Assembly (NCBI GenBank): GCA_029862005.1
Contig: JAOTYD010000027.1
Span: 1 to 42,447, forward strand
Reading direction: 5' to 3'
DNA length: 42,447 bases
From: Gammaproteobacteria bacterium
Lineage (GTDB): Bacteria; Pseudomonadota; Gammaproteobacteria; GCA-001735895
Positions 28,816 through 41,595 of this stretch are shown piece after piece. The notes under the pieces were generated by a model. The model was given only the letters and a program-made list of their open reading frames with translations. It was not told the DNA's origin and did not search any database. Numbering within the stretch: position 1 is the stretch's first letter; every line of letters starts with the position of its first letter. Made by a program: the position numbers and the translations under genes.

Positions 28816-29628
28816 CTATCCCCGGAATAACAATATATCCAGTGCTTGCTCGGCCGAGCAGTTCATTAACAGGTCGATAATGGATAAGTTTGGAATAAAT
28901 GCTTCGAACTGGGTATTTTGTTGCGGATAAGGACGGCAAGTCCAGCTCTGTACCTCGATATTAATCTGATTATCCTGGAAAACTTCGCGATCCATGTAAC
29001 TGTCAAAGGCGGTCCCCCCGGCAAGATAGTTCGTTGCCTCAAAATTTTTACACAGGGATACAATTTTTTCAGATGCTGATATTTCGTTTTCCTCGGAAAA
29101 TAGGCTTGTACCTGTAGTAATATGGTAAAAATCGCCAATCCGTCTTTCTTGTAAAAGCGTATTAACCGATTCCAGGGACAGGCTGGCCAAGGATTCGGGC
29201 GCACGGCCTTCCAGCAGGCGAAACAATGCCCAGAATAAGGTAGCATTATTGAGCTTGGCTACTGTTTCGTATCCCGCCTCGAGAATGGCCTCGATTTCGG
29301 CGAAGACAGAATGAAACTCGGGGGACTTGGAGTAGTTAGATTTTAGCTGGTTCAACTGTTTCTTGGCCCAGGGTTGATCGTAGGAAATCTGGGTTTGATA
29401 AATTGGCAGCATTCCGCCCTTTTTTATCGGTACATTTAAAAGATGTATCCCCGCATTGGTTTTTATCGGGCTATGCACCTGGTGAGATACGCCACGGGTT
29501 CCATCGGAAAACTTGTGGTTTTTCACAAACTGGACATCGTCCCTGATGACAAAATGCTCGGATGCAAACATCCGCGCGAAGTAGTGTAATCTCGGGAAAT
29601 AATGAGGCTGAATGTCGCACAAGGTCAT
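28816..29628 (-). CDS. WbqC-family protein (copy 1)
   Basis: 270 residues from the ATG at 29628, preceded by CAGGCCATC; the frame extends 7 codons upstream. The N-terminal CDIQPHYFPRLHYFARMF, the RGVSHQVHSPIKTN segment and SYDQPWAKKQLNQ are typical of WbqC-like proteins. These occur in O-antigen and polysaccharide loci and are suspected to modify sugars, although the chemistry is not settled. It is a paralogue of the gene at 38311-39120, with identical PNLSIIDLLMNCS near both C termini. It is the most downstream gene of the exopolysaccharide-like block. Confidence 0.87.
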   Translation of the reverse strand: MTLCDIQPHYFPRLHYFARMFASEHFVIRDDVQFVKNHKFSDGTRGVSHQVHSPIKTNAGIHLLNVPIKKGGMLPIYQTQISYDQPWAKKQLNQLKSNYSKSPEFHSVFAEIEAILEAGYETVAKLNNATLFWALFRLLEGRAPESLASLSLESVNTLLQERRIGDFYHITTGTSLFSEENEISASEKIVSLCKNFEATNYLAGGTAFDSYMDREVFQDNQINIEVQSWTCRPYPQQNTQFEAFIPNLSIIDLLMNCSAEQALDILLFRG

Positions 29629-29771
29629 GATGGCCTGTCCCTTTGGCAAGTACGGAAGACTAGAGTAATGCTTCTAGCGAGGTTCGAACAATATTCACAT
29701 CGGGAGAGATTGTCTTCCCCTAAAATTCGCAAGCCTCAGTATAGGGGCGGGATTGGCATGGTCAAGAAGGG

Positions 29772-30170
29772 TTATCTGTTGATTTGCGCAACTTTGGCCT
29801 TAACGGGACCGAGTTGTTTTCTGAGTTGTTCGAGGTCGTCGGTGTCGTCGAGCGAATACTCGCGTTGATCGGCGTCGCGCACAATCACTTTATTATCCCG
29901 AGTCAATACATAGTTTTCATAACCTTCGTCGACAAATAACCAGGGAAGCTGGTCACCCGCGATGTCGAATGACTCCATGCCGAGCGAGTGAAGCACTTTA
30001 CCAGCAGCTTTTTCCCGCTCTTCGTCCAAGGCTTTTCGCGTCGATGGATCATGATTTACCAAGCAATAGAGCGAATAGGTCAAGTAAATATCTTCGATTT
30101 TGCTGTCCTGGGTGGCTGAATCCGATCCATGGTAGAACGACCATTTATACAAAACTTTCTTTTTCACCAC
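29772..30170 (-). CDS. Hypothetical protein, 132 aa
   Basis: I do not recognise a family. The start is one of two tandem GTG codons (30170 or 30167), preceded by AGGTTTAA. The product is soluble in appearance, with charged helices (DEEREKAAGKVL, DDTDDLEQLRKQL) and a beta-like stretch YENYVLTRDNKVIVRDA. No signal peptide is present. It sits between the WbqC gene and the GH18 lipoprotein gene, on the same strand, so it may belong to the polysaccharide block. Confidence 0.6.
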   Translation of the reverse strand: MVKKKVLYKWSFYHGSDSATQDSKIEDIYLTYSLYCLVNHDPSTRKALDEEREKAAGKVLHSLGMESFDIAGDQLPWLFVDEGYENYVLTRDNKVIVRDADQREYSLDDTDDLEQLRKQLGPVKAKVAQINR

Positions 30171-30518
30171 TTAAACCTGATACCGTATTTGTTATATATA
30201 TAGCAGATTTCCGGATTAGTTACCTTAGATAAATACGTAAAATAGCTGTGCGGAAATTCTCGATTTCCGAGGCAGCGAGTTAGTTCCCGGACTACGGAAG
30301 AGCCGGATTTGCGGGCGGTTCAGTTGATAAAATCGGTAGATGGCCGCGGATCTGTGGGCATTAAAAATGTACGTAAAGTATTTACTTTAAAAATAAAATG
30401 TCTTTTCGTGTCAATTCTTTACGATCACGTCATTGTCGTGCTTTCAATTTGAATTTGCTTGGTTTTCAATCTGGCGGATTTATCCGGAGCTTACTTTTCA
30501 TTTAAGGCCTACGGTTTT
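30171..30518. other. Gene-free stretch between small hypothetical gene and GH18 gene
   Basis: No open frame of interest is seen. It includes a short palindrome GTAAAGTATTTAC (30373-30385) in an AT-rich context, about 200 bp upstream of the 132-codon gene, so a promoter or operator is possible. No sigma-54 or strong sigma-70 pattern was recognised. Confidence 0.4.
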
Positions 30519-31667
30519 TCAATGCAGTGAATCTCTGATTTCTTCCCATATACCCGGATCTTCCTCGCCCAGCCTCCACAAGCCTATATTATTAATCCCA
30601 TACTTGGCCTTGAGTTTAAGCTTTTCCCTGATACTGTCCTTGTTTTCGAACCAGGCTACATAGCCTACTCCCCTGCTGTCCTCGAACAACTGGTAGGGAC
30701 TGCCGTGCGGATCGCTCCATTTGACCTCGGCGTCGAACCTGTCCTGGAATGAAGAAATTTTACGATAGGTAAATTCCTTGTCCACACCTACAAATTGGTT
30801 ACTTTTTTTGCGCTCCCACACCTCCCCATAAAGCGGCAGGCCCAGAAAAACCTTGTCCACGGGAACTCCTCGTTTTTCGATCGCGTAATTCAGAACTCCA
30901 TCTACCCATGCTGGCGACGCCAACGGCCCCGGTTGGCTGCCTGGGTAATGTTCGCCGTAAGTCATGAAGTGCATTTGATCGACATAGGGGTGTATTTCAC
31001 TCCAGTCCTGGGCATGCGAACCATTATCTTCCATTGGATTGTCCTCCGAAGTCTTGGGGTGCAAGGCAACGGCGAGCACCTTGCCCTGGTTCTGTAAAGC
31101 TTCTCCCAGCAATTGTATGAACTGCGTGAAATTGCTTCTGTATTCGCCAGGCAAAGCTTCGTAATCGATGTTGATGCCATCGAATCCCATGCGATTCACA
31201 AGGTCAATCAGGTCGGCGACATGTTTCTGTCTCCGGTTTTTCGATTTTATAACCTCCCAAACCCGTTCCGGATCCCAGTTAGAGGCCCCCTCGTTATCGT
31301 CGTCCGGAAGATTGGTGATTATTGCCAGCACCTTTACGCCATTTTTTTGCACAGACCTTATCAGTTCCCTGCTTTCCCTCGCACCCTTGTATTTTTTTAT
31401 TTTTCCACTTTCGTCGAGGACATACCAGAAAAGAGAAATGTGAGTAAACAAGTCAATGTTTTCCTGAAACGATTCCATCGCGTCATCCTGATCCCAATAA
31501 GGCACCCACCCCAATACTATCTTATGAGTATGTTCAGCTTCGTTCGAGGTAACCGAGTAACTATCCGGCTTGATACAGGAAACCACGAGCAGGACAGAAA
31601 TCACCAAGATACCATCAAGCAGATATTTTAGCGGTCGTCTTAATAAAGTGGTGCTGGCAGGCTGCAT
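30519..31667 (-). CDS. GH18-family glycoside hydrolase-like lipoprotein
   Basis: The protein has 382 residues. A lipoprotein signal ends in LLVVSC near residue 31, so the mature protein is probably anchored in the periplasm or at the outer membrane. The barrel shows VLGWVPYWDQ, the catalytic GH18 pattern FDGINIDYEAL (DxxDxE complete, Glu as acid/base), QMHFMTYGEHYPG and VFLGLPLYGEVWE. GH18 proteins cleave beta-1,4-linked GlcNAc polymers; the YaaH-like subgroup acts on peptidoglycan-type or exopolysaccharide glycans. In its context it may trim the polymer made by the GT2 synthase, as the C-terminal domain of PgaB does. That role is an inference. Confidence 0.87.
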   Translation of the reverse strand: MQPASTTLLRRPLKYLLDGILVISVLLVVSCIKPDSYSVTSNEAEHTHKIVLGWVPYWDQDDAMESFQENIDLFTHISLFWYVLDESGKIKKYKGARESRELIRSVQKNGVKVLAIITNLPDDDNEGASNWDPERVWEVIKSKNRRQKHVADLIDLVNRMGFDGINIDYEALPGEYRSNFTQFIQLLGEALQNQGKVLAVALHPKTSEDNPMEDNGSHAQDWSEIHPYVDQMHFMTYGEHYPGSQPGPLASPAWVDGVLNYAIEKRGVPVDKVFLGLPLYGEVWERKKSNQFVGVDKEFTYRKISSFQDRFDAEVKWSDPHGSPYQLFEDSRGVGYVAWFENKDSIREKLKLKAKYGINNIGLWRLGEEDPGIWEEIRDSLH

Positions 31668-31867
31668 AATCGGGATTTCCGTTTTCGCTATTAAAAGATA
31701 ACTGTCACCGTAAATATCCTTGATATACGGATTATTGTCCAGATTGGATTTATATGACAGATTCAGGCCTACGATGTTTGCACCAAAAAGCGCAGGAATC
31801 GGCCGGACCTGGCATAGGGCGGAGTCTGCGGTTGCTCACTCTTTTCACCATGCAGAGCCTGTCGCTG

Positions 31868-33325
31868 CTACCGGCGCCGGTCAACTCGGTCTGCCGGAGT
31901 AGAAGCCGGTAAAACCACTTCATCGAAACTGTAAACTAAAACCAATCCAAACAGAGTTTCTTCGAAGCTGGTTTCATCTATGGTTTCGAGAGCCGATTCG
32001 AGGCTCCAATTGTCGTTAATCCAGTAACGTACGACTACTTCGACAATTCTGCCCGTCGCTGCCTCCTCACTGGCATCGTTGGGCGTTACTTCCCGTTCCG
32101 AGTAGGCAAGTCCGATACCCAGGGGCCATGCGTTGTAATATGCGCTGATGGTAACGGTACTATGGTCTTCGGGATTATTGTTCGCATTTTCGATGTCTAA
32201 AAGTTCCAAGCCCAACTCGATTTCGTAGTTCTCGGACGGCTTAATTACCCCGTACAATGCGCCGATGGACATCTTTTCAACCAGCTCCAGGTCGAGACCC
32301 GGCTGCTGTTCTCCGTAACCGAGGACGTAGTCGACTCTTCCGGCTCCGTAGTTTGAGCTTCCGTGAAAAGTGAGAAGCCCATTATCAAATTTCTCGGTAT
32401 TTCCAGTCCCACCGTCTTCCTTATCCACTTCGTCCAAGCCACTGAGCAGGGGGGCACTAAGAAAAGACGTGTCGACATGAAACAAATGAAGCGTTAGCCA
32501 GTGCTCGTCGGTGGATTCGTTGCCCAGTCTGACCGCTCCACCGAGGCTTATTTTTTCGTCGAGATTGATGTAATTCGAATAATTGCCGAAAAATGTCGGG
32601 GATTCGGGAAATATTTCAGAAGCGGGCTCATATCGTCCGGCGAATAATGAGAATCGTTCTCCACTGTAGTCCAGTTTCAACATATCGATGTTCAGGCCTT
32701 TTCGAAACAGAAACTTTTCGTCCTGATCAAAAATGTTCTTCTCTTCGTCGAAGATGATATCGGTCTCCAGCAGCAAATTCAGGTTATCCGTGATTTTGAA
32801 ATCGGAATAGGATTTTACACGGCTGATAAAATCTTCCTGCTCGAATATCGGATCCGTAGCCTCTAAGACGTTCAAGTATTCGACCTCGGCCTGGACGTGT
32901 GTACTTTCCCAATTAAATAACCTAGTTTCCTGACTTGTCGTTGTGGAAGAATCCGGTAACACGGTTTCCAGTTCTTCCACCGGTGTGGCGTCGTCGGTTT
33001 GCGGTGGTGGCGTATCCTGCTCTGGCGCCTCGGTGCCATCCGTATCCGTTGCTAAGCTGTCGACTTGGGCACTTATCAGCGTCAACACACGATCCTGGGA
33101 AGACGGCAACAAAGGACTGGCGCCAAATCGCTTTTTAAAATCACCCGCAAAAGCCGATTCAGAATGGCATAAAACTAAATAAACGAGGATCAAGATAAAT
33201 TTTGATAAAGGGCCTCGTGATTTCGCGGTAGGTACCGATGATCCCCCGATCGTATTAGGACAAATTGGATCGGGTCGGCCAAGAGTTGCCGCTTTCGATT
33301 CTAGGTTGGTTAACAATATTGTCAC
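31868..33325 (-). CDS. Outer-membrane beta-barrel protein of the polysaccharide block
   Basis: Up to 485 residues. The start is uncertain: the GTG at 33325 leaves a long N-region before the signal peptide (KFILILVYLVLCHSESAFA). Residues about 70-130 are a low-complexity Thr/Pro/Asp/Glu linker (APEQDTPPPQTDD). The rest alternates hydrophobic and polar residues with many aromatic strand ends, typical of a beta barrel, and ends in a final strand-like segment (LFGLVLVYSF) and a short tail. No TPR region like that of PgaA is apparent. It probably forms the export pore or a polymer-associated porin; no family was named with certainty. Confidence 0.7.
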   Translation of the reverse strand: MTILLTNLESKAATLGRPDPICPNTIGGSSVPTAKSRGPLSKFILILVYLVLCHSESAFAGDFKKRFGASPLLPSSQDRVLTLISAQVDSLATDTDGTEAPEQDTPPPQTDDATPVEELETVLPDSSTTTSQETRLFNWESTHVQAEVEYLNVLEATDPIFEQEDFISRVKSYSDFKITDNLNLLLETDIIFDEEKNIFDQDEKFLFRKGLNIDMLKLDYSGERFSLFAGRYEPASEIFPESPTFFGNYSNYINLDEKISLGGAVRLGNESTDEHWLTLHLFHVDTSFLSAPLLSGLDEVDKEDGGTGNTEKFDNGLLTFHGSSNYGAGRVDYVLGYGEQQPGLDLELVEKMSIGALYGVIKPSENYEIELGLELLDIENANNNPEDHSTVTISAYYNAWPLGIGLAYSEREVTPNDASEEAATGRIVEVVVRYWINDNWSLESALETIDETSFEETLFGLVLVYSFDEVVLPASTPADRVDRRR

Positions 33326-33560
33326 GATTGTGTTTCCCGATTCAATCCCAATCCATTGTTTACCGGATGGGTGCTAAGGTTAAAAGCCGACATAGGAACG
33401 AGCGGTAAATAAACAAGCTGCACCGTCCGCTACGAAATGTGTCGCCCGGGGTAGGCGCGCCCAAGCGTAATGTAAATCCGGAGCGATCAACTTTAATTCC
33501 TGAATCAACAACCGATATCAAACGGGCATAAGCGTAATTTGTTGGTAGATTCCACGATCT

Positions 33561-34277
33561 TCAAAGAATCGCCAATCGTTTTAACCAAAACGTTTCGGCC
33601 GCCATGGCTCCGCATTGCAGCCCCCGATAACTGGCCATGGTCTTCACCCCATGGACCGAAAGCGGGCTATCGGCTTGTTTTAACTGGGATTGGTAGAGCT
33701 TGAGCGCTTCAATCTTGGCACTCAAGTCAGCCTCTTCCAATTTAACATACAGCGATGAAGAACTCAGGGTCTCGGCAGTATTCCAGGCATGATAAGGCAG
33801 TTCATATGTGGCCAGCATCGACTGATACGATTTTTGCTTCAACGAAGCCGGCCGCAGTGCGGTTACGGTCGCTTTGAATACCGCGCGGTGATCCTGGTTG
33901 TAGTCATGATTGGAGGTGGTGAGGACCAGGTTCGGTTCGATTATATGCAAGGCCAGTTTGCTCCCCCTTTCGATGGCATGTACCAGTTCGCCCTGGGGTA
34001 TGGCGTCGAGTTTCAGGTGGTATTTATCTCCGCTCAGGGCAATGTCGAAATCATCGAAGTCAAGGTAATCGGCAACCTTTTCAATTTCACTGATGCGTTC
34101 ATCGGCAGTCGATATTCCTTTATCGGAAAAATCCTTCGCAGTTCCCACCGTAACATACATGACATATACCTTGCCGCCTTCGCGCTTGATGCGATGAATA
34201 ATTCCGCCGCATCCAAAGACTTCGTCGTCGGGGTGTGGGGCGATTACGAGTGCCCTGACTTTACTTAGATCAATCAT
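33561..34277 (-). CDS. PIG-L/LmbE-family deacetylase
   Basis: The protein has 238 residues. The zinc-binding motif HPDDE is in VIAPHPDDEVFGCGG at residues 15-19, and the third ligand lies in the segment NHDYNQDHRAV near residue 125. These enzymes remove acetyl groups from GlcNAc-type sugars in lipid- or nucleotide-linked substrates. The ATG is preceded by CAGGAAATTACG. There is no signal peptide, so it works in the cytoplasm. It starts 22 bp after the GT2 gene, so it likely deacetylates a precursor or intermediate of that polymer. Confidence 0.88.
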   Translation of the reverse strand: MIDLSKVRALVIAPHPDDEVFGCGGIIHRIKREGGKVYVMYVTVGTAKDFSDKGISTADERISEIEKVADYLDFDDFDIALSGDKYHLKLDAIPQGELVHAIERGSKLALHIIEPNLVLTTSNHDYNQDHRAVFKATVTALRPASLKQKSYQSMLATYELPYHAWNTAETLSSSSLYVKLEEADLSAKIEALKLYQSQLKQADSPLSVHGVKTMASYRGLQCGAMAAETFWLKRLAIL

Positions 34278-34299
34278 CGTAATTTCCTGGAGTCATAGT

Positions 34300-36000
34300 T
34301 TACGCACGGGAAGGGCTAGACCAGCGACCATCAGACTCAACGAAATAAGTGAGGGGCAAGGTATACAAAAAAATAAATGCGTCGATCCAGCGTAGCAAGA
34401 CAAATCCCAGGCCGTACAGTAATAACATTGGTTTCTTCTCAAGCACGGCAATAACTATCGTCAAGATGTAATCAACCAGAAATATGCCGATAACGACGTC
34501 GCTCAGGCTGATATTGACGATCCCTAGCGTGGGAAGCCAGAGAGCCATTGTTTCGCCGGGGGCTAGCAGAAGCCAGACCAATACGACCGGAAACATCAGG
34601 AATACCACGCTTTGCAGCAGCACCTCTAATGTGAAAGTGCCGAGTGCAAGCCAGAAGAAACTAAACCAGAAACCATGTCTTTTCGCCGTTTGCCAAAAAC
34701 CAAGATTCCAGCGCTTAACCTGAGAAAAATAATCCCGCAGTGAGTGAGGATCTTCGCAAAATGAAATCGCTTTGGGCGTATATGCTATTTTCCCGCAGCG
34801 GTTTTTGTGAATCTCAAAGGTCATGTTGAAATCCTCGATCAATAGACCGGGGGCAGTTATATCGATGTCGGGAATCACGCTGCATCGATACATACTGGAA
34901 AAACCAGGGATAATGTAACTTACATTGGAAAACTCCCATGTCTGTCCGTAGCGAAGAAAAGCCTGCATGACCTTATATAGGCGGACTCGGTAGGCGATAA
35001 AAAAATTTCCCCAAACCGGTATCCAGTGTGGTTTCCATTTGGGAACTGCATGACCCGCAATCGCAACAACGGATGGATTGTCGAACAGGGGCAACGCATT
35101 TTTCATGTAGGCCTCATCGATTTCCGAATCGGCATCCATGATCAGCACTGCCTTGTAGTGGTCGCAGAGTTCGTAATGATCGATCAGATATTGTATTGCC
35201 CGGGCCTTTCCTCCATTGGGCTGTATATTCGCGACATTGCAGTCCCATTGCTTGGCCACCTCTACCGTGTTATCGGTGGATCCATCGCTACCGACAAAGA
35301 CATTGCGAATTGGTACGACTCTTTGTAGTGCATCAAGACATAGATGAATGGTTTTTTCCTCGTTATGGGCCGGCACTAGCACGGCCACGTCGTCTAGATC
35401 GACATGTGATTGTTCAGTCAGCTTATCGTTTGTTGAATCGCGCTTGATCCACCTGTAGTAGTTGAGCCTTAATCGACCGACGAGATACCTGCTGCCAAAC
35501 CAGCTCCCGATCAAGGCCAGTGAAAAGAAAATAGCCAATTCCTCCAAATAGGCAGGATCCGTGATATCGGCGAATTCAGCAATATTCGAATATTCGAGAT
35601 AATAATATAGCGACCAGTAAAGCACCGGGAACAGTAAGGTATCGACCAGGGAAAGTGCGGCACGCAAGATACGCACCAGGGTGTATGCGATCAGGACAGA
35701 CGCTGCAGTCCAGGAAATCGTCGGTAATACCCATGAAATCGGAGCAGGCAGAGAGTTTATGTCGTCTGCTGGCCGGGTATCTGTAGAAAAAACACCGCTA
35801 ATGGCCGTCGAAATCGAAAGCAATACTTCAAATAGCAAAAACGCAATCAGGGCCGCGAGCGAGAATAACAGAAAAAGCCTGATCGGGGATACGTATGCAC
35901 GGGCATTGTCTTGAGAGAGGAACCTGATAAATCCTATGGTGCCCCATAGCGAAAAACTGAAACCGTACAATGTTATAAACGCTAGTATCGATTTGGTCAC
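34300..36000 (-). CDS. Membrane family 2 glycosyltransferase (processive polysaccharide synthase, PgaC/cellulose synthase-like)
   Basis: 566 residues from a GTG at 36000, 12 bp after the epimerase stop. About five N-terminal membrane segments come first. The GT-A domain follows with VLVPAHNEEKTI, DGSTDN, the metal-binding DADSE, the acceptor acidic region LIEDFNMTF, and QVKRW for the growing chain. Three further C-terminal membrane segments complete it. This order (D, DxD, ED, QxxRW) defines processive beta-polysaccharide synthases such as PgaC and cellulose synthase. No PilZ domain is seen, so direct c-di-GMP control is not evident. It is the likely core of the cluster. Confidence 0.9.
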   Translation of the reverse strand: MTKSILAFITLYGFSFSLWGTIGFIRFLSQDNARAYVSPIRLFLLFSLAALIAFLLFEVLLSISTAISGVFSTDTRPADDINSLPAPISWVLPTISWTAASVLIAYTLVRILRAALSLVDTLLFPVLYWSLYYYLEYSNIAEFADITDPAYLEELAIFFSLALIGSWFGSRYLVGRLRLNYYRWIKRDSTNDKLTEQSHVDLDDVAVLVPAHNEEKTIHLCLDALQRVVPIRNVFVGSDGSTDNTVEVAKQWDCNVANIQPNGGKARAIQYLIDHYELCDHYKAVLIMDADSEIDEAYMKNALPLFDNPSVVAIAGHAVPKWKPHWIPVWGNFFIAYRVRLYKVMQAFLRYGQTWEFSNVSYIIPGFSSMYRCSVIPDIDITAPGLLIEDFNMTFEIHKNRCGKIAYTPKAISFCEDPHSLRDYFSQVKRWNLGFWQTAKRHGFWFSFFWLALGTFTLEVLLQSVVFLMFPVVLVWLLLAPGETMALWLPTLGIVNISLSDVVIGIFLVDYILTIVIAVLEKKPMLLLYGLGFVLLRWIDAFIFLYTLPLTYFVESDGRWSSPSRA

Positions 36001-36012
36001 TAATTGTTTCGA

Positions 36013-37023
36013 TTACTGGATAAAAGACACTAGTTCTAGAACTTCGCCAGTTTCAGGTGGAATTGAATCAATCGCTGGTACACCGTAGTTAGGCATCATT
36101 TCCAGCAATCCTTCGGCTACCGTTACTCTGGGAGACCAGCCAAGCCCCCTGATTTTGGTGGTATTGGGTAGGCGGCCGCCATGATCTTCGATGAAATGAG
36201 GGCGGAACTCAATTTCCACCGGCATCGACGTTAACGAATCAATCAGAAAGGCTAACTCCTTGATCGTCATCTGGGTTGAACCACCGATATTGTAAACCTC
36301 ACCGGGAGCTCCTCGCTCCAGGGCAAGCAGCATGCCGCGTATCAGATCTTGGACGTGCATGTGCGCCCTATTCTGGTTTCCGTCGCCGTAAATGGTGATT
36401 TTCTGGCCTAGTCGAATTCTCTTTAAAAATTGCGGTATCACCCGCGTGTCGTCGGGCGACATCCCGTTTCCAAAAGTGTTAAACAGCCGCATGATCTTGG
36501 CATCGATCTGGTATTTATTAACGTACATAGCGATTAGGGCTTCCGAGAATCTTTTGCCCTCCTCGTAAGCGCTTCTGGGGCCAACGGGATCGACATTGCC
36601 GTTATAGGTTTCCGGCTGTGGGAATATCTCGGGATCGCCGTATACTTCCGCTGAACTTGAGAATATGAGTTTCGACTTGCACTTTTTGGTCAGTTCGAGG
36701 ACATTGAAAGTTCCGGTCGAACAGGTAACCAGCATTTCCTCGGCCATTGGAAGGATATTCGGTACCCCAGTTGGGCAGGCCAAATGAAATATCTCATCGT
36801 ATTTTTCATCTTTAAATTCAGATACAAAACCAGGATCCGATATGTCAATCTCCATTAACCGAAAGGAGCGGCTTTCATGAAGGCTTGAAATTGATGCCTT
36901 TCGTCCAGTTGAAAAATTATCGATGCAGTCGACGCTATGACCTTTTTCGAGAAAGTATTTGCATATGTTGGACCCAACAAAACCTGCACCCCCGATTACC
37001 ATAACACGTTTCATTTTTCCCAT
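36013..37023 (-). CDS. NAD-dependent epimerase/dehydratase, UDP-glucuronate decarboxylase-like
   Basis: About 336 residues from the ATG at 37023; a Shine-Dalgarno AGGAGG lies 15 bp upstream, and an ATG at 37014 is an alternative. The Rossmann motif GGAGFVGSNI, the FSSSAEVYGDPE strand with the active Ser/Glu, and the catalytic SAYEEGKR (YxxxK) fit short-chain sugar-nucleotide enzymes. The stretch NVDPVGPRSAYEEGKR matches UDP-xylose synthase-like enzymes best. It would make the sugar nucleotide used by the adjacent synthase. Exact product (UDP-xylose, UDP-arabinose or another) is unresolved. Confidence 0.85.
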   Translation of the reverse strand: MGKMKRVMVIGGAGFVGSNICKYFLEKGHSVDCIDNFSTGRKASISSLHESRSFRLMEIDISDPGFVSEFKDEKYDEIFHLACPTGVPNILPMAEEMLVTCSTGTFNVLELTKKCKSKLIFSSSAEVYGDPEIFPQPETYNGNVDPVGPRSAYEEGKRFSEALIAMYVNKYQIDAKIMRLFNTFGNGMSPDDTRVIPQFLKRIRLGQKITIYGDGNQNRAHMHVQDLIRGMLLALERGAPGEVYNIGGSTQMTIKELAFLIDSLTSMPVEIEFRPHFIEDHGGRLPNTTKIRGLGWSPRVTVAEGLLEMMPNYGVPAIDSIPPETGEVLELVSFIQ

Positions 37024-37065: not shown

Positions 37066-37859
37066 AATATAATCTACTAAATAACGGTGACTAGTTAATT
37101 TTAATCAATTAAAAACATTGTTCAGGTTTCCGAAAAGTCAAAGACGTTAATAACTGAATCAACGACTTCGATTCGCGCGATGCCAACCGATTTATACCAA
37201 AGTAACCATTTACCCAAAGCAACCATTTACACTTTGCATATAATTATTGCTTCTTAGCAAGAAAATACCAGATATTGTAGGCATTGTTAGTCCAAACAAC
37301 TATATATAGCGCTACAACTAGAAATCCCCCTGAATTTTTTGCTGGTTATTTAATACGTCTTATACAGTAATGAAGAAGTAAAGCACATCACCCAAATGAG
37401 GTAAGTTTCACCCAAACAGGTTAAAAATCTCCGCGATACATAGTGAGATGTTTATAGGCGAACGTCTCAGTTGGGATGTGAACTCAATCGGTCGATGCAA
37501 CATCTAATTTCTAGCTACAAAGAGGAGGATGTTGGTAATGCTTTGAATAATGGGGATCTGGGATTTTTTCCAATCAACATCCATCTGACGGCTCAAATTC
37601 TTCTGGCCACAATAGTTGGTGAGCCCTTAACGAGCCTCGGAAAACACTATACGTTGGTTTTAAACAATGCCGCAGAGTAATCGAAGATCGAAAAGATCTA
37701 TTGAGTCACAAGAATGGCGACATCATAACCCATTAGAGCAAAGTTAAAATCGAGCATCTGCGGGAGGCGGTGAATTCCATTACTAGAGATATCTACCGCA
37801 AATTTCCTACAGTGAGAGTTGCTGGAGAATGCGAAACGACGCTAAGTCATTGAAAGAAA
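37066..37859. other. AT-rich gene-poor stretch
   Basis: No convincing gene is seen. A 69-codon frame from a TTG at 37471 to 37680 lacks a clear ribosome-binding site. The segment includes AATTTCCTACA at 37801-37811, which recurs on the far side of the tRNA fragment. Promoter elements for the epimerase operon are presumably at 37030-37130. The composition differs from the first 28 kb and suggests decayed mobile DNA. Confidence 0.5.
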
Positions 37860-37905
37860 TGGTGGCTACGCCCTGATTTGAACAGGGGACCCCACCATTA
37901 TGAGT
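37860..37905 (-). pseudogene. 3' half of an elongator tRNA-Met (CAT) gene, probable att-site scar
   Basis: Read on the minus strand, the fragment runs ACTCATAATGGTGGGG, then a T arm CCCTGTTCAAATCAGGG, acceptor strand CGTAGCC and an encoded CCA. This matches the 3' half of bacterial elongator tRNA-Met, whose 5' acceptor strand would be GGCTACG. Upstream of the anticodon loop the matching 5' half is absent: the bases before it do not pair with TGGTG. A tRNA cut at the anticodon loop is a typical footprint of a tyrosine-recombinase integration event. No integrase gene remains in the window. Confidence 0.8.
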
Positions 37906-37998
37906 ACGATAAGGCAATTATATTAGGCTAATAATCAATAGCCTAGCGAGGCACCCATTGCCGAGATTGCACCACTAAGCATAACAATGCATTACTGA

Positions 37999-38017
37999 AT
38001 CCTACAATTTTCCTACA
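37999..38017. repeat. Tandem TCCTACA motifs near the tRNA fragment (possible arm-type sites)
   Basis: ATCCTACA (37999-38006) and AATTTTCCTACA (38006-38017) lie on one side of the tRNA-Met fragment, and AATTTCCTACA (37801-37811) on the other. Short direct repeats on either side of a core are typical of integrase arm-binding sites. This is suggestive only. Confidence 0.35.
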
Positions 38018-38070
38018 CCGGCAAACTACATTTTTTGAGAATGAAACCAGTGAAATTGATATAAACTGTT

Positions 38071-38190
38071 CATCGCGAATTTGATGCCTATTTGCGTTGC
38101 GACGGTCTGGATTATGGTTTCCAGCGCGTAGTCTGCGTATTCTGCCATGCCGAGCAGCTAGAGGCCTTTAGCTGCAAGAGGCGCGGCCCC
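38071..38190 (+). pseudogene. IS91-family transposase N-terminal fragment
   Basis: The frame reads HREFDAYLRCDGLDYGFQRV, then CVFCH and EAFSCKRRG, the N-terminal zinc-binding region of IS91-type rolling-circle transposases. The next conserved stretch (CPSC and catalytic part) is not found; after about residue 40 the similarity stops although the frame stays open to 38322. It is a truncated remnant, showing that an IS91-like element once passed through this locus. Confidence 0.65.
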
Positions 38191-38310
38191 TCCCGCAAGC
38201 CCTATCCGATCAACTGGGAAATACATCGGGTACGACGCGAAACTTGCCACGAGGAGCGCCTGCCCGCCTTTATCCGTATGCGCGGTCAATTTCAGCCAAA
38301 AAGACAACAC

Positions 38311-39120
38311 CTACGGCAGTAGCAGATCCAGCGCCTCGCCAGGTGAACAATTCATCAACAAATCGATGATGGAGAGATTGGGTGTAAATTCTTCCACGTC
38401 CATATATTGTTGCGCATAGGGCTCGCATAGCCATTGCTGAATCCGGACATTGATATTTCTTTCACTAAAAACATCAAGATCTAAATAACTCTCATAAGCT
38501 GTTCTGCCGGTGATGTAATCCGTAGCACCGAAAATCGTGCACAATCGGGCGATCTTTTCCGATGCGCTCATTTGATGATAGGCGGCGCCAACATCGACTT
38601 CGGTGCCGAGGATGATATGGCGTAACTTACCCGGCAACTTCTGATCTATCAGCGAATTTACCGATTTCAGGGTCATGTGTTCCGGACCTACCGGATCGAC
38701 GCCCAGCAGTCGGCTAACTGCCCAGCATATGGTTGTCGTGTTGAGTTTAGCCACCGTTTCATAGCCGCTTTCCAGGATCGACTGGATCTCGCTGAAGACG
38801 GGCTCGAATTGCGGGGACTTGCTGTAGTTATGTTTGATTTGATTTAATTGCTTTTTCAGCCACGGCTGATCGTAGGAGACCAGCGTTTTGCTGATCGGCA
38901 GGTAGCTCCCTTTTTTTGCGGACACGGTAAGCATTACTGGCCCGTGGTTGGTCTTGATAGGGGAATGCACCTGGTGTGATACCCCGCGCGAACCGTCTGT
39001 GAACCTGTGCTTGTTTACGAATTGAACCTCATCCTTGATGATGAACTGGTTGGATTCGAACATGCGGGCAAAAAAATTCAATCTGGGAAAATACTGAGGC
39101 TGTATGTCACTTAGAATCAT
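38311..39120 (-). CDS. WbqC-family protein (copy 2)
   Basis: The protein has 269 residues. LSDIQPQYFPRLNFFARMF, RGVSHQVHSPIKTN, SYDQPWLKKQLNQ and the C-terminal PNLSIIDLLMNCS align throughout with the gene at 28816-29628. The paralogues differ by scattered substitutions, so the duplication is not very recent. It is separated from the polysaccharide block by the tRNA fragment and the IS91 remnant, and lies downstream of the PEP-CTERM gene on the same strand. Confidence 0.87.
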   Translation of the reverse strand: MILSDIQPQYFPRLNFFARMFESNQFIIKDEVQFVNKHRFTDGSRGVSHQVHSPIKTNHGPVMLTVSAKKGSYLPISKTLVSYDQPWLKKQLNQIKHNYSKSPQFEPVFSEIQSILESGYETVAKLNTTTICWAVSRLLGVDPVGPEHMTLKSVNSLIDQKLPGKLRHIILGTEVDVGAAYHQMSASEKIARLCTIFGATDYITGRTAYESYLDLDVFSERNINVRIQQWLCEPYAQQYMDVEEFTPNLSIIDLLMNCSPGEALDLLLP

Positions 39121-39432: not shown

Positions 39433-40068
39433 TTATGTTTTTCTGCGACGAGCAAAACTTAAACCGAGTAAACCCAACCCAAAGAGAGCTACGATTGAAG
39501 GTTCAGGTACAACTGTAATACTGGTCCTAATCCAGGCGGAGTCATCAGCATTAGCGAAGTTGTTCGCGGTGTAAATCCAATTGGCATTTGTGCTAATTCC
39601 ACTCACCGCTGCGCCGCCATTTACGGTAGTCCAGATGTTCGGATCGCCATTGAAGCCATACTCGGTTGCATTCGCGAGGAAATTGCCAGTGTCTACATCA
39701 TAGACTTCCCAGGCTGAGGAAGAATAGTTGGCGTTACCATCCCAAAGGATTTCTGCAAGCAATGCAGCAGGATTACCGTCGGATAAATTACCTACATTCA
39801 GTATGTTCCAGGCAAAATAGTGTGTGCCAGCACCCAGGTCGATTGTTACTGAATCGGATTGCGTCCAATCACTAGCATTTGCCAAAGCCCCCGAACCTAA
39901 ATCCTCCCAAAGCTGGCCATCCGTGCAGCTTGAATCAGAACACAATCCACCCGATGCGAGAATATTATCGACCGGCAGATTGATGGTTATGAGCGTGGCC
40001 TGGCTTGATGTCGCGAAACCGAAGGACAATATTAATGCCGCTGAGATTCGTATGATTGTATTTTTCAA
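39433..40068 (-). CDS. PEP-CTERM sorting-domain exported protein
   Basis: About 211 residues from a TTG at 40068. The frame is open to 40107, but that start would lie at or upstream of the predicted sigma-54 transcription start, so it is rejected. A signal peptide (IIRISAALILSFGFATSSQA) is followed by an Asn/Ser/Asp-rich beta domain. The C terminus is a textbook PEP-CTERM tail: VPEP, a hydrophobic helix (ALFGLGLLGLSF) and ARRRKT. Exosortase recognises this tail and the proteins go to the surface or extracellular matrix, usually where exopolysaccharide is made. No exosortase is in the window. Confidence 0.9.
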   Translation of the reverse strand: MKNTIIRISAALILSFGFATSSQATLITINLPVDNILASGGLCSDSSCTDGQLWEDLGSGALANASDWTQSDSVTIDLGAGTHYFAWNILNVGNLSDGNPAALLAEILWDGNANYSSSAWEVYDVDTGNFLANATEYGFNGDPNIWTTVNGGAAVSGISTNANWIYTANNFANADDSAWIRTSITVVPEPSIVALFGLGLLGLSFARRRKT

Positions 40069-40102
40069 TTTAGTATCACTCAATATTAGATTAGATGAAT
40101 AA

Positions 40103-40118
40103 AGCAAATTTCAGGCCA
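40103..40118 (-). promoter_or_regulatory. Sigma-54 (-24/-12) promoter of the PEP-CTERM gene
   Basis: The minus strand reads TGGCCTGAAATTTGCT, which fits the TGGC-N8-TTGC(A/T) consensus with exact GG-to-GC spacing. Transcription would start near 40092, giving a leader of about 24 bases to the TTG at 40068. Confidence 0.8.
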
Positions 40119-40211
40119 CGTAATTAATGATGGTGTTTATCAGTAACTTAAAAATAATTGAATATAAATTTTGAATCATTTTGCAAAATTTTTTTACAGC
40201 TTTCCGGTGCA

Positions 40212-40232
40212 ACTGTAAAGAATCTTTACAGT
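40212..40232. promoter_or_regulatory. 21-bp perfect palindrome, probable enhancer/activator site
   Basis: ACTGTAAAGA and TCTTTACAGT flank a single A, a perfect inverted repeat with 10-bp arms. Its centre is about 130 bp upstream of the predicted sigma-54 start, the usual distance for an enhancer-binding activator. A PrsR-type regulator, known to act with RpoN on PEP-CTERM genes in other bacteria, is a candidate, but the protein is not encoded here. Confidence 0.7.
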
Positions 40233-40629
40233 GTGTACTTTTGAGAACATAGCGAGAACTATACTATAGTCACCATTGATTTAAATTCAGTCAAAATCAA
40301 TGAAGGGCGGAACTAGACCAGGTGCGGGAGATAAGAAAGGTTCAGGACAGCAGCCCATTACATGGCGATGCTGGAACCTTATGCCGAAGAATTAATACAG
40401 CACGTTTGGAAATCGTGCTCTGAGTGCATTGGCATAAGGGTGCTTGACTGCGAGACAGACACGTCGAGCAGGGTCGAAAGACGCCTATGGGTCGGATATC
40501 GCCGCTGATCTATCGATTTTGAGCGGCAGCTTTCTCAATAGCAGACCCTCGTCAATCCCTGGTAGGCGGCAATTTTCGGCCAATACCGGACGCTCATATT
40601 TTCCGTGATAATATGTTATTTAGATAGAT
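40233..40629. other. Gene-free stretch upstream of the agmatinase-family gene
   Basis: No gene is seen. It holds repeat copy A (40491-40595) and the upstream region of the agmatinase-family gene. Much of the AT-rich part next to the palindrome may be regulatory. Confidence 0.5.
40491..40595. repeat. Dispersed repeat family, copy A
   Basis: About 100 bp including GAGCGGCAGCTTTCTCAATA, GCAGACCCTC, CCTGGTAGGCGGCAA and TTCGGCCAATACCGGAC. It matches the window end (42355-42447) over its length with scattered differences and partly matches 41630-41700. Confidence 0.65.
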
Positions 40630-41595
40630 ATGAAAGATTCTGATATCAATACCTCAGACGCTATATTTGGTTGTTCACGCCCGAGTGAGCAAACTTCCGA
40701 GGCACCATTTTTTGGCGCCAACACCTTCATGCGTCGGCCTTATTGCAGAGAGCTTCAACACGCTGACATTGCAATTCTTGGTGTGCCATTTGATCTCGCC
40801 GTTTGTAATCGCCCTGGCACAAGATTTGGACCCAGAGCAATAAGACAAGCGAGCCGTGACATATCAAGCTGGAGGAACCAATATCCCTGGGGATTTGATC
40901 CTTTCGATTATATAAATGTTTTCGATTATGGTGACGTGGTTTACCGTTACGGAGATGCCGCTGAAATGGTCGAGCAAACCCAAGCCTGCGTCGCTGATAT
41001 ATTAAGAAAGGGGGCAAAAACATTGAGCCTCGGCGGAGATCATTTTGTTTCTCTACCTATTTTGCGCGAAGTTGCAAAAACGCATGGTGCGGTATCGCTA
41101 GTTCACTTTGATGCGCATACAGATACCGAAAGAAACGACAATCCTTACGACCATGGATGCATGTTCTATCGTGCCGTTGAAGAAGGCATTGTTGATCCCA
41201 CGAGATCAGTACAAATTGGTATCAGGACCGACTACGATAAAGATAAAGACCAGTTTACTGTAATCGACTCACCTACGGTTCACCGAATCGGCATAGACTC
41301 AACTGTAGGGAAAGTAAGGCAGATGATAGGTGATCATAAGGCTTACCTCACTTTCGATATTGACGCTCTCGACCCCGCTTTCGCCCCTGGCACAGGCACG
41401 CCGGTTCCAGGGGGTCTAACTTCAAATCAAGCCCTAGAAATTCTAAGGGGGATATGGGATATCGAATTTGTCGGTATGGATATCGTTGAAGTGGCGCCGG
41501 ATTACGATCACAGCGAAATTACGGCTTTAGTTGCCGCTCAGCTAGGTCTCGAATTTATATGCATGCAAGCTGCATTAAAGCAAAATGCCCCATAA
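40630..41595 (+). CDS. Agmatinase/arginase-family ureohydrolase
   Basis: The protein has 321 residues. Binuclear manganese motifs are complete: GGDHFVSLPI with the first His, HFDAHTDTE, and TFDIDALDPAFAPGTGTPVPGG. Length and the C-terminal segment MDIVEVAPDYDHSEITALVAA fit agmatinases best. Agmatinase yields putrescine and urea, but guanidino-acid hydrolases of the same family cannot be excluded. Its TAA lies inside an attC-like sequence. It is on the plus strand like the RidA gene, opposite to the polysaccharide block, and its codons look more AT-rich than those of the first 28 kb. Confidence 0.9.
   Translation: MKDSDINTSDAIFGCSRPSEQTSEAPFFGANTFMRRPYCRELQHADIAILGVPFDLAVCNRPGTRFGPRAIRQASRDISSWRNQYPWGFDPFDYINVFDYGDVVYRYGDAAEMVEQTQACVADILRKGAKTLSLGGDHFVSLPILREVAKTHGAVSLVHFDAHTDTERNDNPYDHGCMFYRAVEEGIVDPTRSVQIGIRTDYDKDKDQFTVIDSPTVHRIGIDSTVGKVRQMIGDHKAYLTFDIDALDPAFAPGTGTPVPGGLTSNQALEILRGIWDIEFVGMDIVEVAPDYDHSEITALVAAQLGLEFICMQAALKQNAP

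Follow-up and report, generated by a model that had tools for sequence, protein, structure and literature searches.

A conserved glycosyltransferase cassette with a predicted UDP-uronate decarboxylase and a PIG-L/WbqC pair, possibly for a new synthase-dependent polysaccharide

Seven genes on the minus strand of contig JAOTYD010000027.1 (Gammaproteobacteria bacterium, GenBank assembly GCA_029862005.1) include the core of a polysaccharide-synthesis cassette that is conserved across phyla. They occupy positions 28816-37023 of the analysed stretch of DNA, which is 42,447 nucleotides long and is called the window here. The core is composed of a short-chain dehydrogenase/reductase (SDR) resembling UDP-glucuronate decarboxylase (UDP-xylose synthase, UXS), a membrane-bound family 2 glycosyltransferase (GT2) and a deacetylase. 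It is commonly joined by a UDP-sugar dehydrogenase and a glycosidase. We propose, with a probability of roughly 0.4, that the block is a synthase-dependent system for an amino-sugar polymer, poly-(N-acetyl)xylosamine, de-N-acetylated and then re-N-acylated in the cytoplasm. Such a system would be of a known kind, and its polymer is possibly new.

The order of steps that we propose is as follows. A WecC-type UDP-N-acetylhexosamine (UDP-HexNAc) 6-dehydrogenase, encoded next to the other genes in many relatives and here probably on contig 24 of the same genome, would make the uronate UDP-GlcNAcA from UDP-N-acetylglucosamine (UDP-GlcNAc). The UXS-like SDR would decarboxylate it to UDP-N-acetylxylosamine (UDP-XylNAc). 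The cytoplasmic PIG-L protein would strip the N-acetyl group, and the WbqC protein, with its predicted BshC fold, would add another acyl group to the freed amine, possibly cysteine or another amino acid; both reactions could take place at the level of nucleotide sugar or of nascent chain. The GT2 would polymerise and translocate the chain, and a GH18 lipoprotein would trim it outside the inner membrane. In variants of the cassette that carry CE4 or DUF2334/DUF3131 proteins, an extracytoplasmic deacetylase would stand in for the PIG-L/WbqC pair.

Results

The block and its conservation

All seven open reading frames (ORFs) of the block were confirmed by ORF calls and Pfam searches, in agreement with a sequence-only reading of the window, which had described a split Pga-like exopolysaccharide system with a PIG-L deacetylase. 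What that reading observed is confirmed and its interpretation is partly supported. In order of transcription the genes are listed below, followed by a second WbqC gene that it had missed.

36013..37023, minus strand: UXS-like SDR, predicted UDP-uronate decarboxylase (UXS structures closest, UXS-joined clade, catalytic residues)
34300..36000, minus strand: membrane-bound GT2, predicted processive polymer synthase/exporter (PF00535, PF13641, PF13632)
33561..34277, minus strand: cytoplasmic PIG-L family N-deacetylase, nearest named family BshB1 (PF02585, 5.5e-20)
31868..33325, minus strand: putative outer-membrane beta-barrel, lineage-specific add-on (signal-like segment; Porin_4 at E 0.008, sub-threshold)
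30519..31667, minus strand: GH18 glycosidase, predicted lipoprotein (PF00704, 1.5e-29; lipobox-like VVSC)
29772..30170, minus strand: small soluble protein of 132 aa, no family, found only with the barrel (homologues in loci L005, L006 and L007)
28816..29649, minus strand: WbqC family protein, proposed BshC-like amino-sugar N-acyl (aminoacyl) ligase (PF08889, 2e-42)
38311..39120, minus strand: second WbqC paralogue, upstream of the SDR gene (PF08889, 1e-38)

Pfam cut-offs are passed by the Epimerase/SDR, GT2, PIG-L, GH18 and WbqC matches. The SDR start was placed at an internal ATG (37023), preceded by GGAGG 15 nt upstream, in agreement with the end of the block given by the sequence-only reading.

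A scan of a species-genome collection with the GT2 gave 243 matched stretches, 220 of them relatives, and the best 80 loci were examined: 7 from Gammaproteobacteria, 9 from Alphaproteobacteria, 51 from Actinomycetota including Nitriliruptoria and 13 from Patescibacteria lineages. Because the ORF caller gave antisense-looking ORFs in GC-rich actinobacterial loci, partners were counted with our own hidden Markov models against six-frame translations near the GT2, at 60 bits. Since the models derive from members of these very loci, their sensitivity in them is inflated. Contig ends also affect the counts; more than 5 kb is available on either side in 62 of the 80 loci. L002 equals L005, and L156 equals L006 over a shared 9.6 kb, so L002 and L156 are not independent.

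The UXS-like SDR is present in 74 of the 80 loci, UDP-sugar dehydrogenase and PIG-L in 40 each, WbqC in 39, GH18 in 28, CE4 in 25, a DUF2334/DUF3131 protein in 9 and GH10 in three alphaproteobacterial ones (L011, L012, L017). Some deacetylase is found in 73. As a control, 20 stretches of 17.1 kb were drawn at random from six carrier genomes, all of Actinomycetota; none reached 60 bits with any of the eight partner families, the best score being 32 bits for PIG-L. There can be hardly any doubt that this is a conserved polysaccharide-synthesis cassette. As the barrel and the small protein are found in only three of the 80 loci, the conserved core is reduced to SDR, GT2 and deacetylase. The sequence-only reading had asked for conserved co-occurrence of all seven genes in one order: the core does co-occur, while the order is not kept, GH18 and barrel being swapped in L006 and L007. 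Among relatives of the host the system is rare: of 143 genomes searched, the host's own included, two contain the GT2 at an E-value of 1e-60 or better.

Several further genes were noticed near the cassette in single relatives. An ORF resembling polyprenyl-phosphate sugar transferases by eye (L010, 2908-3504) belongs to a sequence cluster with members no more than 8 kb from the GT2 in five loci (L010, L039, L062, L063, L084), and an ORF of L020 (15907-16686) resembles glucosamine-6-phosphate deaminase (NagB) by eye. Directly after the alphaproteobacterial GT2s lie genes for proteins of about 940 aa with a start like that of twin-arginine translocation substrates (L012, 9146-11974; L017, 9153-11963).

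Donor sugar

The solved structures nearest to the window SDR are UDP-glucuronate decarboxylases (2b69, 2.6e-65), and the next SDR follows at 3.7e-34, a gap of about 100 bits. In the actinobacterial relative L060, UXS leads the next entry by about 29 bits (one phmmer test). Phylogenetic analysis placed 28 SDRs from proteobacterial and patescibacterial loci in one clade with an SH-aLRT support of 99, and this clade joins the UXS references with a support of 91; in this tree the actinobacterial SDRs are unsettled with respect to the references, being joined by the long ArnA branch. Among plasmid sequences, the best SDR match has 53% identity and belongs to Mesorhizobium AR02, which carries the same GT2 system as the window and whose SDR is not among the reference rows of the tree. 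Other plasmid matches fall to about 41% or less, and several of them are annotated as UDP-glucuronic acid decarboxylases (among the 40 of 1,611 matches listed). The glutamate, the YxxxK motif and the arginine that we take to act in UXS catalysis are kept in the aligned SDR rows. One loop is changed: 26 of the 28 proteobacterial and patescibacterial SDRs have CPTGVPN, and the other two CPTGV, at the position of AC[PV]ASP in all three UXS references. A 4-epimerase role of the SDR (TviC/WbpP, leading to a Vi-antigen-like poly-GalNAcA) was considered and rejected, because UXS is ahead of the next SDRs by those 100 bits.

Dehydrogenases of the cassette point to an amino sugar. The enzyme of L020, the one tested, has UDP-HexNAc dehydrogenases as its best match in the structural database, and the seven locus dehydrogenases compared all score far higher with WecC than with Ugd (206 versus 58 bits for L020). 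The window genome encodes a WecC-type dehydrogenase on contig 24 that is 45% identical to the enzyme of locus L022. Forty loci have no nearby dehydrogenase; 18 of 22 of their carrier genomes that were tested have one elsewhere. The sequence-only reading correctly recognised a sugar-nucleotide enzyme in the block, and missed both its UXS-like type and the UDP-HexNAc dehydrogenase neighbours.

Since the SDR is UXS-like, its loop is changed and the dehydrogenases are of HexNAc type, the likeliest donor route would lead from UDP-GlcNAc through UDP-GlcNAcA to UDP-N-acetylxylosamine. The SDR is accordingly predicted to resemble UDP-N-acetylxylosamine synthase (UXNAcS), converting UDP-GlcNAcA to UDP-XylNAc; of the listed evidence, it is the dehydrogenase type and the changed loop, and these two only, that suggest this substrate. 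An N-acetylxylosamine-type donor seems to us slightly better than an even bet. GH10 is a xylanase family, and a xylo-configured backbone would fit its occurrence beside three alphaproteobacterial cassettes. Passages of one study describe the same two steps: a Bacillus UDP-GlcNAc 6-dehydrogenase and UXNAcS, placed in Escherichia coli, made UDP-N-acetylxylosamine (PMC5078965).

Several observations weigh against this route. The CPTGVPN loop occurs in none of 47 actinobacterial SDRs. WecC-type dehydrogenases can act on other sugars, and the L020 enzyme is also matched by CalS8. In the window no dehydrogenase is adjacent to the SDR, and a Ugd-type enzyme is encoded in the window genome as well (contig 89), which makes a UDP-glucuronate/UDP-xylose route possible. 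Four of the 22 carrier genomes gave no dehydrogenase match at E 1e-20.

The SDR could then be a true UDP-xylose synthase, with the GT2 using UDP-xylose for a xylan-like or mixed xylose polymer and the deacetylase acting on a second sugar, for example GlcNAc. The nearness to UXS, the retained catalytic residues, the Ugd-type enzyme, the GH10 genes and a UXS-epimerase-GT2 locus known from Sinorhizobium meliloti all speak for it. We nevertheless find it fairly unlikely: the locus dehydrogenases compared are of UDP-HexNAc type, the SDRs of proteobacterial and patescibacterial loci stand in a clade of their own with the altered loop, the deacetylase is almost universal, the two UXS-linked GT2s compared are distant, and GH18 enzymes usually require a 2-acylamino sugar.

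The synthase

The window GT2 has the Q..RW motif in the form QVKRW, which the sequence-only reading had seen, and also DxD; both are conserved in the family, where the Q, R and W are invariant. Near-invariant stretches of the family are DxD, IEDFNMTFE and Q..RW.LGFWQT, of which the last two differ in PgaC/IcaA. Hydrophobic segments at both ends flank the catalytic part. Judged by these family features the GT2 would be a processive, self-exporting enzyme, and we regard a processive polymer synthase as quite likely.

It is conceivable that the GT2 does not polymerise but decorates a lipid or a wall polymer with one or a few units of an amino-pentose, with GH18 and PIG-L processing the glycan. 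Such a scheme is equally workable in bacteria with one membrane, and among the block ORFs there is no co-polymerase or exporter with tetratricopeptide repeats (TPR). However, the Q..RW motif and the flanking membrane segments are typical of processive GT2s, and the cassette is self-contained, with a family of endo-glycosidases in many relatives, so that this explanation is improbable in our view.

The resemblance to PgaC and IcaA is limited. With one PgaC, one IcaA and a pair of UXS-linked GT2s as references in the tree, all 82 locus GT2s form a single clade (SH-aLRT 97) on a long stem, separate also from ApsS-like synthases. The best NCBIfam model of the window GT2 is PgaC_IcaA (7.7e-17), with 61 bits versus a cut-off of 422. 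A split Pga-like system, in which a GlcNAc polymer of the poly-N-acetylglucosamine (PNAG) type would be exported via the barrel, had been suggested from the sequence. This best model, and a deacetylase and hydrolase reminiscent of PgaB, are in its favour; the GT2 tree, the missed cut-off and the lack of the barrel in 77 of the 80 loci led us to drop it. Neither a PgaA TPR protein nor PgaD was seen among the block ORFs, and we know of no place in PNAG synthesis for the UXS-like SDR and HexNAc dehydrogenase. We hold this interpretation to be very unlikely.

Other elements of the sequence-only reading proved sound. Its statement that no Wzx/Wzy, PgaA-like TPR or PilZ is seen agrees with the Pfam matches of the block, which include none of them; a flippase-like ORF was noticed by eye elsewhere in the genome (contig 24). 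In the homologous loci seen, neither a complete Wzx/Wzy set nor a PgaB fusion is a constant companion, with Wzx/Wzy read by eye in a few of these loci. A PgaB-like layout does exist in a different branch: the 940-aa protein of L017, the one alphaproteobacterial protein tested, is a fusion of deacetylase-like DUF2334 with DUF3131 (Pfam), on account of which DUF3131 may be the catalytic or the binding part of a PgaB-like enzyme.

PIG-L and WbqC

The window PIG-L protein carries the metal motif APHPDDE, and its best NCBIfam model is BshB1 (7.2e-12, below cut-off). Among 40 ORFs of the PIG-L family, 34 have HPDDE and 22 match a loose pattern for the second histidine motif. It has no hydrophobic N-terminus, which bears out its earlier description as a cytoplasmic protein without signal peptide, and both PIG-L and WbqC are free of membrane segments.

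The two genes travel together: of the 80 loci, 38 have both, two PIG-L alone, one WbqC alone and 39 neither. CE4 and PIG-L are nearly exclusive, occurring together in one locus. The analogy of this pairing to BshB and BshC had escaped the sequence-only reading. According to the parts of a 2015 review available to us, bacillithiol synthesis includes a step in which the deacetylase BshB uncovers the amine of GlcNAc-malate; this amine is then capped by BshC, putatively a cysteine ligase (PMC4360819).

A model of WbqC (17 sequences, pLDDT 89.5) aligns with BshC (4wbd) over 229 residues at VIA-align Z 14.2 and rmsd 3.6, the next chain reaching Z 6.7. The model thus suggests a BshC fold. No BshC sequence was found in 39 genomes of the window's relatives searched. 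WbqC itself occurs in 14 of 140 genomes of the class Gammaproteobacteria, the window genome included. In the 13 other class loci (10-13 kb), a DegT sugar aminotransferase is present in 12 and PIG-L in three, and every locus has one or the other; one of them (L156) is the L006 contig, which leaves DegT in 12 of 12. Actinobacterial control stretches had DegT in 0 of 20 and PIG-L in 1 of 20 (47 bits). Among plasmids, 7 of 10 WbqC neighbourhoods sampled from 53 records contain an aminotransferase, one of them PIG-L as well. That WbqC keeps company with enzymes creating free sugar amines is suggestive. DegT genes are common in surface-sugar clusters, and for this reason, and because the DegT control is actinobacterial only, their nearness to WbqC is suggestive and nothing stronger.

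Other results speak against the proposed role of WbqC. When phylogenetically independent PIG-L/WbqC pairs are counted, four comparisons lie on supported branches, two of them going the same way, none the opposite way and two showing no difference, which is not significant. Foldseek alone returned no match of the WbqC model at E 0.001 or better and had BshC outside its top 50, and none of the 17 WbqC proteins matched Pfam BshC (PF10079). Three of the 10 plasmid neighbourhoods have no annotated amine-making enzyme. Furthermore, the ligase activity of BshC was unproven in vitro at the time of the 2015 review, as its passages state (PMC4360819). We give even chances to WbqC acting on a freed amine; that the added group is an amino acid is a more doubtful guess.

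That PIG-L and WbqC act off the polymer, making a co-inherited small amino-sugar conjugate (thiol cofactor or lipid), would agree with the small thiol made by BshB/BshC and with the lack of membrane segments in both enzymes, but the family matches of the block include no BshA-type glycosyltransferase and CE4 polysaccharide deacetylases replace the pair in sister GT2 loci, which leaves this idea with scarcely any credit.

The second WbqC of the window is 57% identical to the first and is present in L005 too; L020 likewise carries a pair of WbqC genes, which differ in type. On a Mariluticola plasmid (L123, 1465-2148 and 5004-5684), PIG-L and WbqC lie inside a pseudaminic-acid-type cluster. In one of the 13 class loci (L158, G074:C1:1394149-1394764), which has a DegT-containing cluster, the WbqC gene is broken by a stop codon.

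GH18, barrel and small protein

The GH18 protein is a separate predicted lipoprotein, unlike the hydrolase-like domain of PgaB, as had been read from the sequence: its hydrophobic segment (residues 14-32) ends in the lipobox-like VVSC. The D-x-E catalytic pair is kept in the window and in 28 of 28 homologues. GH18 catalysis uses the 2-acylamino group of the substrate; an N-aminoacyl group would still offer it an amide carbonyl.

The ORF that the sequence-only reading took for a barrel gene is present, with Porin_4 below threshold, and it does not belong to the core. A signal-like segment is found at residues 43-61, and because this stretch begins only near residue 43 the GTG start is doubtful. 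An AlphaFold2 model from four sequences has strands, but at low confidence (pLDDT 28). Homologues of the barrel were found in L005 (= L002), L006 and L007 only, and in 2 of 95 host-relative genomes. The 132-aa protein matches no Pfam or NCBIfam family, and its homologues are confined to the same three loci. With such a distribution both look like lineage add-ons. In the window lineage the barrel may serve passage through the outer membrane.

Surroundings of the block

Between the second WbqC gene and the SDR gene lies 1.2 kb without credible ORF (37066-38310), parts of which are matched only by the close relative L005 among the loci compared. Directly upstream of the second WbqC gene, a protein with a PEP-CTERM sorting signal is encoded at 39433-40107; a search of the loci database at E 1e-3 gave no homologue for it. 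At 40386-40484, a 99-nt match to bacterial 23S rRNA was reported by Rfam (E 7.7e-14) but did not appear again in a search limited to 40200-40700.

Discussion

An undescribed synthase-dependent polymer, already suspected from the sequence, is a fair inference from a conserved system of synthase type. It counts against the specific polymer proposed here that no member of the cassette has known chemistry. A wider picture can be drawn, which we consider unlikely in its entirety: a xylosamine exopolysaccharide would be made by Patescibacteria, Actinomycetota and Proteobacteria alike, with its amines freed by PIG-L and then capped with amino acids by WbqC, sister loci would use extracytoplasmic CE4 enzymes, and WbqC proteins in general would be N-(amino)acyl ligases of amino sugars.

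In the mainly open-access literature searched, and in the passages seen of it, we found no description of a xylosamine polysaccharide, of a link between WbqC and BshC or of PIG-L in synthase systems, and no reaction assigned to WbqC. A 2025 paper deals, in the part available, with Pig-L and biofilm in Clostridioides difficile (PMC12613277). The relevant passage of a 2020 survey lists five synthase-dependent exopolysaccharides, namely cellulose, acetylated cellulose, PNAG, alginate and Pel (PMC7112194). If our proposal is true, a further one would be added to the five of that survey, its donor sugar would be one that the literature passages name just as a pathway product, and the BshB-BshC chemistry of a small thiol would be reused for decoration of a polymer. 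WbqC becomes a testable enzyme, as a candidate amino-sugar acyl ligase with a BshC-related fold. The cassette is found in Patescibacteria as well, a group with poorly understood surfaces.

Comparison with known systems

Among the systems most similar in outline are PgaABCD and IcaADBC, which share with the window a processive GT2 with Q..RW, N-deacetylation and a hydrolase-like partner. They differ in that the window GT2 belongs to another clade and that PIG-L replaces CE4 in the window branch: no CE4 protein is found by Pfam among the window block ORFs, though CE4 is present in other loci of the family. The window family further adds the UXS-like SDR, the UDP-HexNAc dehydrogenase and WbqC, and in the block neither PgaD nor any Pfam match to a PgaA-type TPR was seen. 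Apart from the general GT2 domain, the Pfam matches of the block likewise include no PilZ, TPR or other part that we take to be typical of the four remaining polymers of the survey.

In the S. meliloti locus mentioned above (L097), presumably the genes of an arabinose-containing polysaccharide, a UXS-type decarboxylase also stands directly with a GT2 synthase. That GT2 lies on a very long separate branch, the decarboxylase is a canonical UXS, a GalE-type epimerase is found instead of the dehydrogenase, and no deacetylase or WbqC is annotated within the 6.9-kb stretch.

The Bacillus UDP-N-acetylxylosamine pathway, compared by description and not by sequence, consists of UDP-GlcNAc dehydrogenase followed by UXNAcS and equals the proposed donor route; the passages available name no polymer (PMC5078965). 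Bacillithiol synthesis offers a parallel for the later steps, as a deacetylase is followed by an enzyme of WbqC-like fold on a 2-amino sugar (PMC4360819, in part). BshC differs from WbqC in length (540 versus 277 residues) and shares no Pfam-level sequence similarity with it, and the product proposed for the window is a polymer. The thiopeptidoglycan sheath polymers of Sphaerotilus, reportedly described by Kondo (2011) and Kashiwabara (2021), are by name a precedent for cysteine-bearing amino-sugar polymers; they were compared as polymers and not by their genes. Their sugars, according to the passages seen of a further source, are different ones: glucuronic acid, galactosamine and glucose (PMC11087309).

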